IMG/VR virus record: IMGVR_UViG_3300020437_000122
Span: 1 to 23,763 of that record
From: a virus
Direction: 5' to 3' (one strand)
DNA: 23,763 nt
The translations under genes and the position numbers were made by a program. The notes beneath the pieces were generated by a model. That model saw only the letters and a list, made by a program, of their open reading frames with translations, was not told the origin of the DNA and made no database searches. This document shows, piece after piece, positions 15,677 to 18,902 of this stretch. How positions within the stretch are numbered: the first letter of the stretch is position 1; each line of letters opens with the position of its first letter.

Positions 15677-17081
15677 AACAGTTAGAGTAGAAAAATTAGA
15701 TGAAGTCTTCATGAGAGTTCATTGTGATGATGGTCTTGCAAAAGACTTACATGACTTCTTTTCGTTTACAGTTCCTGGTGCCAAGTTCATGCCGTCTTAT
15801 AAGAACAAATATTGGGATGGCAAAGTTAGATTATTCTCTATCAAAACAAATAAGATTTATATAGGTCTATTACCATATGTCGATGAGTTCTGTAGAGAAA
15901 GAGGTTTTAACTTTGAAGGTATACAAGATGTAATAGGAGAGAAACAAAGAGCAACAGAAGAACTACATCAGTTTATAGAAGAACTAAACTTACCTTTCTC
16001 GCCAAGAGATTATCAAATGGAAGCATTTAGAACTGCTGTGCAATATGGCAGACAACTTTTACTTTCACCAACTGCAAGTGGTAAATCATTAATCATTTAT
16101 TTACTCGCAAGATATTATAACAAGAAAACAATTATTATAGTGCCGACTACATCACTCGTAGAACAAATGGCAAAGGACTTTATAGATTATGGATATGATG
16201 AAGAGATTTGTAAAATTTATAGTGGTCAACCTGTGTTTGATTCAGCAATCACGATTACAACATGGCAAAGCTTTGCTAAGGCACCTAAAGAAGTAATGCA
16301 ATCATTTGATGTTGTAGTAGGAGATGAAGCGCATTTATTTAAGGCACAAACACTAAAAGGTATCTTAGAGAAGATGAAGACTACTGCAATTAGAATCGGC
16401 ACAACAGGAACATTAGATGGTTCTGAATGTCATAGATTACAGTTAGAAGGTATGTTTGGTCCTGTAAAGAAAGTCATATCGTCATACCAACTTATGGAAG
16501 AAGGAACGATTGCAAAAATTAATATACAATGTGTCATACTCCGTCATACTAAACAGAAGAAAATGACCTATCAAGAAGAGATGGACTATCTATGTTCTAG
16601 TGAAGAAAGAAATAAATTTATTACAAATCTAGTTTCATCGTTAAAAGGTAATACATTAGTATTGTTTCAGTATGTAGAAAAACATGGTGAAGTATTATAT
16701 CCTATGTTAGATGGCAGAGTAAAAGATTTACATTATGTATTCGGTGGCACTGATACAGAAGACAGAGAGAAAGTCAGAGAACTTGTAGAGAAATCAAATG
16801 ATAGTGTGATACTCGCATCATACGGAACATTCTCTACAGGTATCAATATTAAGAAGATAGATAATGTAGTGTTTGCAAGTCCTTCGAAGTCTAGAATTAG
16901 AAACTTACAGTCAATTGGTCGTGGTCTTCGTAAGGCAGATGGTAAAGATAGTATGAGATTGTTTGATATCGCAGATGATTTACAATGTGATAATTTTACA
17001 CTCCGTCACTTGAAAGAAAGAATAAATACCTATAACGAGGAAAACTTTCCTTACGAACTAAAACAATTTGACTTAAAATGA
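15669..17081 (+). CDS. uvsW: UvsW-like superfamily 2 helicase
   Basis: 470 residues (T4 UvsW: about 500). Residues 1-100 fit the N-terminal DNA-binding domain (FTVPGAKFMPSYKNKYWDGKVRLF). Helicase motifs: Q-like FSPRDYQ (110-116), Walker A SPTASGKS (133-140), Ia IIIVPTTSLVEQM, DEAH box GDEAH (218-222), III GTTGTLDG, motif V ASYGTFSTGINI, motif VI QSIGRGLRK (414-422). UvsW unwinds branched DNA and R-loops, remodels forks and moves T4 from origin- to recombination-dependent replication. The stop overlaps the next ATG (ATGA). Confidence 0.96.
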   Translation: MSETVRVEKLDEVFMRVHCDDGLAKDLHDFFSFTVPGAKFMPSYKNKYWDGKVRLFSIKTNKIYIGLLPYVDEFCRERGFNFEGIQDVIGEKQRATEELHQFIEELNLPFSPRDYQMEAFRTAVQYGRQLLLSPTASGKSLIIYLLARYYNKKTIIIVPTTSLVEQMAKDFIDYGYDEEICKIYSGQPVFDSAITITTWQSFAKAPKEVMQSFDVVVGDEAHLFKAQTLKGILEKMKTTAIRIGTTGTLDGSECHRLQLEGMFGPVKKVISSYQLMEEGTIAKINIQCVILRHTKQKKMTYQEEMDYLCSSEERNKFITNLVSSLKGNTLVLFQYVEKHGEVLYPMLDGRVKDLHYVFGGTDTEDREKVRELVEKSNDSVILASYGTFSTGINIKKIDNVVFASPSKSRIRNLQSIGRGLRKADGKDSMRLFDIADDLQCDNFTLRHLKERINTYNEENFPYELKQFDLK

Positions 17082-17581
17082 CAACACCAAAAGATTTAGT
17101 ACCAGAAAGATACGAAGTTATCAAACTAAAATCAGGCGCAGAGATTGTTGGTATGACTAGAGATTGTGGCGACCATTTAGAGATTACTCTTCCTATGATA
17201 TGCCAACTATCACTAGTTCCAGGAACACCAAGAACTAATGCTGTCTTTTATCCTTATGCACCTTTAAGTGCTGATGAGATTATTAATATACCTAAGTTCG
17301 AAATCATACATAGAAATCTTATGAACGAGCAATTCGTTCCTTACTATGACGATGCATCTTCTAGATGGTTCGATATGATTGAGAACAAATCTATACCTCT
17401 TGCAACAGTTGAAGATAAGAAAGTATCTGAAATCATGCGTAGGTCAATTGATAGAATGATGTCAAGAATGACTGAGGCACCAGATGAACAATTCATAGAA
17501 GAACAGTTAGAAGATATGGATTGGGAAATGGAAGAGTTCGAATTATCTGAAGCACCAACAGATAAAAAAAAGTTGCACTAA
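17078..17581 (+). CDS. Conserved-type hypothetical protein with Sm-like N-terminal half and acidic tail
   Basis: 167 residues. The N-terminal half (PERYEVIKLKSGAEIVGMTRDCGDHLEITLPMICQL) has the K-L-K-S-G-x-E-I-x-G pattern of small Sm/LSm-like beta barrels in marine phages, followed by an apolar stretch FYPYAPLSADEIINIPKFEII. The C-terminal half is helical and acidic (EEQLEDMDWEMEEFELSE). No catalytic motif is evident. It overlaps uvsW by 4 bases (ATGA), so is co-translated with it. Comparable genes follow or flank uvsW in marine T4-like phages as I remember. An RNA- or protein-binding role is a guess; the family name is uncertain. Confidence 0.75.
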   Translation: MTTPKDLVPERYEVIKLKSGAEIVGMTRDCGDHLEITLPMICQLSLVPGTPRTNAVFYPYAPLSADEIINIPKFEIIHRNLMNEQFVPYYDDASSRWFDMIENKSIPLATVEDKKVSEIMRRSIDRMMSRMTEAPDEQFIEEQLEDMDWEMEEFELSEAPTDKKKLH

Positions 17582-17685
17582 TTTTCACAAACTTTTATTT
17601 TAGGGCTAGTAATTTACTAAATAACAGTGTATAATCCACAGTGATAATACATTATTTGTAAAACATATATTAACCTGGAGAAACC
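17582..17685. other. Intergenic region with promoter elements before the membrane cassette
   Basis: 104 bases. It holds a 13-base palindrome TAGTAA-T-TTACTA (17607-17619), a TATAAT box (17630-17635) preceded by TG, a second CAGTG/ATAAT copy directly after (CAGTGTATAATCCACAGTGATAAT spans 17625-17648), and a ribosome binding site GGAG at 17677-17680 for the next gene. No tRNA or terminator is seen. Confidence 0.6.
17630..17635 (+). promoter_or_regulatory. TATAAT promoter for the small membrane cassette
   Basis: Perfect TATAAT. The position of a -35 at 17 bases (17607-17612) coincides with the left arm of the palindrome TAGTAA/TTACTA, which is not a good -35, so an activator or repressor site is possible. 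Transcription would start near 17642, giving a leader of about 45 bases. Confidence 0.5.
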
Positions 17686-17847
17686 ATGTCGAAAGCAATT
17701 GCAGTTGCGAAGAGCATGGTGGGAAAATTCGAAGACCTGAGAGAAGTGCTACCAAGCATCATTGAAGCCCTAGAGTTCGTGACACTATTGACTCTTCCAA
17801 TCTTATTACCGTTCGCTATAATGTTTTTAGCATTAGCACAATACTAA
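17686..17847 (+). CDS. 53-residue membrane protein, first of a three-gene cassette
   Basis: Begins MSKAIAVAKSMVGKFEDLRE, continues with an amphipathic helix (VLPSIIEALE) and ends in a strongly hydrophobic span of about 21 residues (32-50, TLLTLPILLPFAIMFLALA). Ribosome binding site CTGGAG is 5 bases before the ATG, the best in this cassette. The stop overlaps the next start (TAATG). No family recognised. One span with the N-terminus probably in the cytoplasm; possible roles include superinfection exclusion, membrane anchoring or lysis timing, all guesses. Confidence 0.75.
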   Translation: MSKAIAVAKSMVGKFEDLREVLPSIIEALEFVTLLTLPILLPFAIMFLALAQY

Positions 17848-17945
17848 TGTCTAAAGAAAGAGTAGAAAAAATTAGAGATAACCTAGAGGTGTTTTGCCTC
17901 TGGGTTATCTTCATATTAGCAACAGGTGGGATAGTTCAAATATGA
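17847..17945 (+). CDS. 32-residue membrane peptide, second of the cassette
   Basis: Starts on the stop of the preceding gene (TAATG) and ends on the start of the next (ATGA). Charged N-terminus MSKERVEKIRDNLE, then hydrophobic VFCLWVIFILATGGIVQI. The first four residues MSK- repeat the beginning of the 53-residue neighbour. Its coding sequence contains a long perfect hairpin (17876-17910), so the selection on these bases may be for RNA structure as well as protein. Function unknown. Confidence 0.6.
   Translation: MSKERVEKIRDNLEVFCLWVIFILATGGIVQI
17876..17910. repeat. Long hairpin inside the 32-residue membrane-peptide gene
   Basis: AGATAACCTAGAGG (17876-17889) pairs with CCTCTGGGTTATCT (17897-17910): 14 base pairs with one U-G, loop TGTTTTG. 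No U tract follows, so it is not a standard terminator. It covers codons 11-21 of the peptide and lies just before the start of the third cassette gene at 17942, where it could block or couple translation, or mark an RNA cleavage point. Confidence 0.75.
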
Positions 17946-18223
17946 AACAACAATATGACCCTGTCTGGAAAAGATGGCAAACAGTTCCGTCTGCCGTAGA
18001 AGATTGCGCCGATGTCACTTCCGGCTATGAACAACAACTTGAACTCTTACTAAATAAACCTAGAGATGCGACTCCTAAAGAAGCAGAAGATTGGTATGAA
18101 GAAGAGTTGAAGTGGTGGGGAGATAGACAATTGAAAATAGTTGCGATTGCTACTGTAGTTCAAATATCCGCACTAGGATTTATGGCAGCTGTAATGTTGT
18201 TTAATCAAAGTGTATTTGGATAG
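17942..18223 (+). CDS. 93-residue tail-anchored membrane protein, third of the cassette
   Basis: I chose ATG 17942 (MKQQYDPVWKRWQTVPS), which overlaps the previous stop as ATGA, over an upstream in-frame ATG at 17894 that lies inside the hairpin and the preceding gene. Residues 1-62 are polar and acidic, with tryptophan/glutamate-rich EAEDWYEEELKWWGDRQ before the membrane; residues about 65-88 (KIVAIATVVQISALGFMAAVMLF) form one span near the C-terminus. Topology suggests a cytoplasmic N-terminal domain. No family recognised. It ends a run of three overlapping genes that each encode a single-span protein. Confidence 0.75.
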   Translation: MKQQYDPVWKRWQTVPSAVEDCADVTSGYEQQLELLLNKPRDATPKEAEDWYEEELKWWGDRQLKIVAIATVVQISALGFMAAVMLFNQSVFG

Positions 18224-18359
18224 GTCCTGACCCTGGCGACAAAGCTATCATATCATACTAACCTCGATTCTGAAAAGGGGTTTTCTAAAAAACTTTTAAA
18301 AAAATAAATACTAAAAACCACTTACAATCATTGAAGGAACCTAGTATAATAACTACATC
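18224..18359. other. Intergenic region upstream of gp55
   Basis: 136 bases. It holds no reading frame I can support. A weak AT-rich hairpin (GTTTT 18280-18284 with AAAAC 18289-18293, extended by AAAA/TTTT across a GGG bulge) lies in the middle and is followed by A-rich DNA, so it is not a convincing terminator. The gp55 promoter box is at its end (18345). The first 40 bases (GGTCCTGACCCTGGCGACAA...) are more GC-rich than the rest and unexplained. Confidence 0.5.
18345..18350 (+). promoter_or_regulatory. TATAAT promoter for gp55 (apparently leaderless)
   Basis: Perfect TATAAT ending 9 bases before the gp55 ATG, the same distance as at uvsY. TTACAA at 18322-18327 is 17 bases upstream but matches TTGACA poorly. 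The segment AAAACCAC about 27 bases upstream of the box is also seen 28 bases upstream of the uvsY box. GAAGGAAC (18333-18340) is too far upstream of the ATG to be the ribosome binding site if transcription starts downstream of the box. Confidence 0.55.
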
Positions 18360-18902
18360 ATGGCAAAAAACGCAAAACAAAATGAACACTATGTCAACAA
18401 CAAAGAGTTCACACAAGCAGTCGCCGAGTTCAACGAAAAAGTAAAACTCGCCGAATCAAAAGGCAAAACGCCACCACAAATGTCCAACTACATAGGAGAG
18501 TGTATCTATAAGATTGCAACTCGACTATCTACGAGGCCTAACTTTATAAACTATACCTACAGAGATGAGATGATATGTGATGCAATTGAAAACTGTATTC
18601 AGTATATCGGGAACTTCAATGTAGAAAAATCTAACAACGCATTTGCATACATTACTCAGATTTGTTATTACGCCTTTCTTAGAAGGATACAGAAAGAGAA
18701 GAAACAAGTCTTCATCAAACAACAGATGACTATGGATATAACCGCAGATACATTTGAAACAATAGATGGTGATACAACTGGTATGACTAATACTAATGTA
18801 GAGTGGATGCAAGAAAACATGACACAAGTCCAATACGAACCGAGGAAATCAAAACGAAAGACATCTACTAAGACTAAAGGTCTAGACAAATTTACTGAAT
18901 GA
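18360..18902 (+). CDS. 55: gp55-like late-transcription sigma factor
   Basis: 180 residues (T4 gp55: 185). The region SNYIGECIYKIATRLSTRPNFINYTYRDEMICDAIENCIQYIGNFNVEKSNNAFAYITQICYYAFLRRIQKEKK is a sigma region 2-like segment with the typical DEMI-DAIENC-x8-NF and A-F-A-Y-ITQI-x-x-AF-RRI-KEK pattern of T4-like late sigma factors. It directs RNA polymerase to TATAAATA boxes with help of gp33 and the sliding clamp gp45, neither of which is in this window. Four exact late boxes stand upstream of structural genes here. A basic C-terminal tail (RKSKRKTSTKTKGLDKFTE) follows. The stop overlaps gp47 (ATGA). Confidence 0.95.
   Translation: MAKNAKQNEHYVNNKEFTQAVAEFNEKVKLAESKGKTPPQMSNYIGECIYKIATRLSTRPNFINYTYRDEMICDAIENCIQYIGNFNVEKSNNAFAYITQICYYAFLRRIQKEKKQVFIKQQMTMDITADTFETIDGDTTGMTNTNVEWMQENMTQVQYEPRKSKRKTSTKTKGLDKFTE

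Follow-up and report, generated by a model that had tools for sequence, protein, structure and literature searches.

Three overlapping genes between uvsW and gp55

The stretch of DNA analysed here (the window) is a virus record of 23,763 bases that carries, in a T4-like order, gp23, uvsY, a gene for a 2OG oxygenase, uvsW, a gene for a 167-residue protein (orf167), a cassette of three small ORFs, gp55, gp47, gp46 and a peptide deformylase gene. The identity of gp55 comes from a PHROG match (E 5e-59) and the remaining gene names from reading of the window and synteny with annotated relatives. The cassette (Table 1) sits between the uvsW operon and gp55, with orf167 and gp55 as its direct neighbours. 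The orf167 product (window 17078-17581) has a weak match to a PHROG named 'methylamine utilization', a name used in related phages that looks unsupported since the only Pfam match, to DUF5774, lies below the cutoff. The closest cultured matches to the window are Methylophilales phage Melnitz and the Pelagibacter phages Mosig and HTVC008M, whose 68-70% identity covers at most about one quarter of the region. Five annotated relatives from culture (Mosig, HTVC008M, Melnitz, S-PRM1 and P-TIM68) have a short orf167-gp55 interval that holds at most one small ORF, and the cassette thus does interrupt the recombination/late-sigma (uvsW/gp55) block, as a preliminary description of this DNA had it.

Table 1. 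Features of the cassette and its leader (positions in the window)
Feature	Position	Strand	Description
TAAATA element	17618..17623	+	late-promoter-like; common to relatives
Hairpin	17627..17652	+	just downstream of TAAATA; from folding z-scores in relatives
P1, 53 aa	17686..17847	+	single-span membrane microprotein, predicted one long helix
P2, 32 aa	17847..17945	+	single-span microprotein, resembles an orphan signal anchor
P3, 93 aa	17942..18223	+	predicted disordered cytosolic tail, one long membrane-crossing helix, tiny C-terminal tail
P3 residues 6-11, DPVWKR	17957..17974	+	optional second tail motif, D-x(1-2)-WKR
P3 residues 32-37, QLELLL	18035..18052	+	matches hexameric beta-clamp-binding motif
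P3 residues 39-47, KPRDATPKE	18056..18082	+	conserved element leading into helix start (residue 45)
P3 residues 66-87	18137..18202	+	predicted membrane span, conserved Q74

Re-reading of the coordinates and Kyte-Doolittle profiles bore out the description of overlapping ORFs of 53, 32 and 93 codons, joined by TAATG and ATGA and each encoding one hydrophobic segment (19-residue maxima of 2.4 for P1, 2.0 for P2 and ~2.2 for P3). The MSK start common to P1 and P2, to which attention had also been drawn, is incidental: relatives begin MTT, MTQ, MSQ, MIK and others. Short ORFs in AT-rich DNA are no evidence of genes on their own. Here, the frames are intact and under purifying selection, with dN/dS below 1 except in a single P2 pair that has no more than seven differences, and the order P1-P2-P3 is kept across many uncultured marine T4-like contigs. 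For these reasons P1, P2 and P3 can be taken firmly as real genes in a conserved arrangement. When P1 is compared between two phages (window 17686-17847 against L006:3745-3906), synonymous differences number 1 in 37 sites, versus 24 in 103 for gp55 of the same pair; the far lower divergence of P1 hints at recombination or constraint at the RNA level.

As stated at the outset, none of the three proteins is recognisable: P1, P2 and P3 are without a match in Pfam or PHROGs. Several versions of P1 and P3 used in tblastn found no relatives in cultured phages, a PDB profile search gave no structural match for P3, and a pattern scan of 84,980 prokaryote species (one genome per species) gave no bacterial relatives of P1 or P3.

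Upstream of P1, a TATAAT promoter with a palindrome at the -35 position had been proposed as the cassette's own. GTATAAT is no more frequent than chance would have it (four in the window versus 5.3 expected) and relatives do not preserve it as a -10 box, having GTATCAT, GTATAAC or GTATGAA in its place; we have dropped this candidate. By contrast, 25 of 41 relatives have TAAATA no more than 90 nt ahead of P1. Fully intergenic copies on the + strand number eight in the window versus 2.2 expected from mononucleotide shuffles, an enrichment of the kind expected of T4-type late promoters, and expression of the cassette is probably late. The TAAATA element is followed by a hairpin, with which the late mRNA probably begins. 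Judged by per-lineage folding (the automatic alignment was gapped), this segment has a mean folding z of -2.1 in 27 relatives, where the neighbouring segments average -0.4 (upstream) and +0.4 (downstream), and pairing is kept as the stem sequences vary between lineages; taken alone, the hairpin of the window is weak (z -1.2 to -1.3).

At the gp55 start (window 18344-18360), GTATAATA is found at a fixed distance before the gene, 16 nt in 15 loci and 13 nt in 11, and is itself preceded by CTTACA. Transcription of gp55 would then start at or near the ATG, and the late sigma factor may therefore come from an mRNA with little or no leader.

Arrangement in relatives and other settings of P3

Pattern scans of IMG/VR identified 44 P3 loci and 31 P1 loci; with alignments added, the totals were 103 candidates for P3, of which 80 were retained, and 64 loci for P1, reduced to 86 contigs, many of which have in common the gene order uvsY-2OG-uvsW-orf167-P1-P2-...-gp55. 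Thirty-six dereplicated contigs include the whole orf167-gp55 interval, with P1 present in 35, P2 in 32 and P3 in 25 (28 if three P3-C-terminal-like forms are included), counts that describe order and pairing rather than prevalence, as the contigs were fetched by P1 or P3 searches. The interval spans 686-2264 bases and can have P4, P7, P8, Pm, an EF-hand protein and an alternative oxidase as extra members, in a fixed relative order. With 16 gene arrangements in 36 sites, the locus is a hotspot of small membrane genes. The alternative oxidase is present at four of the 36 sites, with oxidase-like genes lying between the cassette and gp55 at L029:4254-4832, L033:4262-4834, L014:4230-4841 and L071:4906-5481; the L029 copy matches Pfam PF01786 (E 4e-68) and the other three were assigned by similarity.

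The strict gene order, the pairing of P1 with P2 at 31 of 36 sites and the recurrence of the whole set close to curli genes in another phage background (L034/L147) support the view that P1, P2 and P3 form a unit. This much of the earlier proposal stands, but the lysis control that it put forward for the trio is disfavoured. Small single-span proteins behind a probable late promoter are what a holin/antiholin or lysis-timing cassette might look like, but the T4-lysozyme-like gene of a 140-kb relative (G001) is ~28 kb from its cassette, P3 is also found in nucleotide-metabolism operons, and among the window neighbours, orf167 and gp55, there is no endolysin or spanin gene adjoining the cassette. 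A role in lysis is unlikely, and we give it very little credence.

As small phage membrane proteins, P1-P3 are reminiscent of the T4 superinfection proteins Imm and Sp, but they are single-span, are conserved as a trio and have no Pfam or PHROG similarity. The cassette might encode a superinfection-exclusion or envelope-modifying set, in which variable single-span proteins block DNA entry of competing phages. The single spans would fit, as would the combinatorial nature of the hotspot, expected of fast-evolving competition genes. Against this, the proteins lack similarity to a known family, P1, far from being variable, is strongly conserved, and the cytosolic motifs of P3 are left unexplained. 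No evidence was found in support of superinfection exclusion or membrane remodelling, the other roles offered in the preliminary description, and we regard the exclusion model as rather unlikely.

Away from this site, P3 adjoins nrdA/nrdB, glutaredoxin, c-type cytochromes, iscU, EF-hand proteins and gp46/47, and its neighbours include uvsW too. Apparently exported EF-hand proteins recur beside it (L029:3609-3863, L036:2645-2893 and L018:4200-4490), membrane-anchored c-type cytochromes are encoded directly upstream of it or one gene off (L102:4555-4995 and L134:4349-4780), and in the 140-kb relative an IscU-like gene (L229:633-1055) adjoins the DNA polymerase gene. P1-P3 could be accessory membrane subunits, of the size of CydX or CcoQ, for respiration or redox reactions during infection, in keeping with cytochrome c, glutaredoxin, nrdAB and iscU beside P3 elsewhere and with the alternative oxidase and EF-hand genes within the interval itself in some relatives. 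Most sites, the window included, are without such genes, however, and in P1-P3 there are no conserved metal ligands apparent and no Pfam family match. We consider such a function improbable.

An involvement in curli (type VIII) secretion, with P1-P3 as anchors or leader-derived parts of the phage system, appears equally improbable. csgG is present in 11 of the 13 contigs tested, but curli genes are widespread in pelagiphages (PMC7029224, PMC9599517). In L034/L147, no more than a few kb separate P1-P2-P3 from the csgF and csgG genes, and in L128 (1797-2303, 4953-5786) CsgF carries a fused leader resembling P2 and a curlin-like protein one resembling P3; L219:2246-2713 has another P2-like CsgF leader, the likeness being by eye. 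The cassette thus shares with the curli module its phages and the resemblance of P2 and P3 to the CsgF and curlin-like leaders. It differs in that P1-P3 are usually away from csg genes (csgG is ~15 kb from the cassette in the 140-kb contig) and are not described in the passages of PMC7029224 and PMC9599517 that were covered. HTVC008M has csgG (PMC9599517), yet no detectable P1 or P3, and the co-occurrence may mirror a common phage lineage. The L128 fusion also suggests an N-in/C-out topology for P3, since the P3-like leader there sits on a curlin-like protein.

The N-terminal tail of P3

The features common to P3 homologues are a tail at the N-terminus, KPRDATPEE, a W that does not vary and a membrane helix in which a Q is conserved; D-x(1-2)-WKR is found in 23 of 58 tails. 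Just before KPRDATP, all 41 divergent representatives (<75% identity) carry Q-x-x-[L/F/I]-x-[L/F], in which Q is invariant, position 6 is only L or F, and positions 3 and 5 are free. The spacing between this motif and KPRDATP varies by one residue, and the two are therefore separate elements.

The bacterial clamp-binding motif has been given in a review as Q-phi-x-[L/M]-[F/L] or Q-phi-x-[L/M]-x-[F/L], the hexameric LQLELDF being, according to the same review, the most abundant phage-display binder (PMC11139829). The published hexameric consensus is fitted exactly by 24 of the 41 P3 representatives, including the window's QLELLL. None of the patterns used to fetch P3 included the clamp-type motif. 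The stricter form QLx[LF]x[LF] is present in 34 of the 41 tails, versus a mean of 0.15 of 41 in shuffled tails, and occurs once among the window ORFs, in P3; in other ORFs of the same contigs, the published-type motif gives ten matches in 200,362 residues. As a sequence signal, the clamp-binding motif in P3 is strong.

AlphaFold leaves residues 1-40 of P3 at low confidence (pLDDT ~50) and predicts a single helix from 45 to 92, which would leave the motif exposed, as a linear peptide beside the membrane helix; clamp-binding motifs are expected in accessible, disordered or loop segments, and this one lies in a predicted disordered segment. The phages' own proteins end differently. In T4, gp55 and gp33 have a C-terminal gp45-binding motif (PMC9690074), which is resembled by the ends of the phage polymerase in the 140-kb relative (SLDSFFG) and of gp55 (GLDKFTE) but not by QLxLxL, and the P3 motif would therefore be of host type.

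A proposed link of P3 to the host sliding clamp

The most specific clue to what the cassette does is this beta-clamp-type motif, which points to DNA replication. We tentatively prefer a reading in which P3, anchored in the membrane, hooks the sliding clamp of the host, and P1 and P2 serve as its partners in the membrane. Three inner-membrane microproteins would be made together, probably late. A single helix would carry P3 across the membrane and leave the N-terminal tail on the cytosolic side, where QLELLL may grip the beta sliding clamp (DnaN), presumably that of the host rather than of the phage, and P1 and P2 would set assembly or location. A clamp held at the membrane might be denied to host polymerases, shutting off host replication or repair; alternatively, clamp-dependent factors might be drawn to a membrane-associated site of phage replication. 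Broader, and held with more reserve, is the proposal of a widespread, phage-only family of P3 clamp hooks, common to unrelated marine phages, swapped as a module with P1 and P2, and holding the host clamp at the inner membrane during infection.

The spacing and tolerance of the motif are as expected of a clamp motif, its predicted disordered setting fits, and P3 has nrdAB, gp46/47 and uvsW among its neighbours. Several observations stand against the clamp hook. A short motif is only suggestive, the P3 homologues are not independent, and the tails stray from the published consensus at position 4 (F in 11 and I in two of the 41) and at position 2 (not L in five). Next to the motif, KPRDATPEE is conserved even more strongly, for which clamp binding gives no reason. 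Probable late expression suits host shut-off poorly, and P3 is in some cases fused to curlin or adjacent to cytochrome c, IscU or alternative oxidase, which suggests other functions.

Among bacterial clamp-binding proteins, the P3 tail may resemble the N-terminus of Hda, in which the clamp motif is likewise placed in a disordered segment. Unlike Hda, P3 has neither an AAA+ nor any other folded domain and is membrane-anchored, and its clamp motif is a putative one. Searched with an Hda profile, the window had a single match, below the cutoff, where gp46 begins (P-loop region), and none in P3. The staphylococcal phage proteins Twort gp168 and G1 gp240 halt host replication via DnaN (PMC3594737); P3 is likened to them by its proposed target, the host sliding clamp, and differs in being a membrane microprotein of marine T4-like and other phages.

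Many uncultured marine phage contigs encode P3 homologues, none of them annotated. Should P3 bind DnaN, these dark-matter membrane microproteins would as a family gain a direct function, and one that is easily tested, a membrane-tethered mode would be added to the ways in which phages take over host replication, and a natural clamp-binding peptide would be supplied. Conservation of motifs of this kind makes small phage genes, usually ignored, readable.
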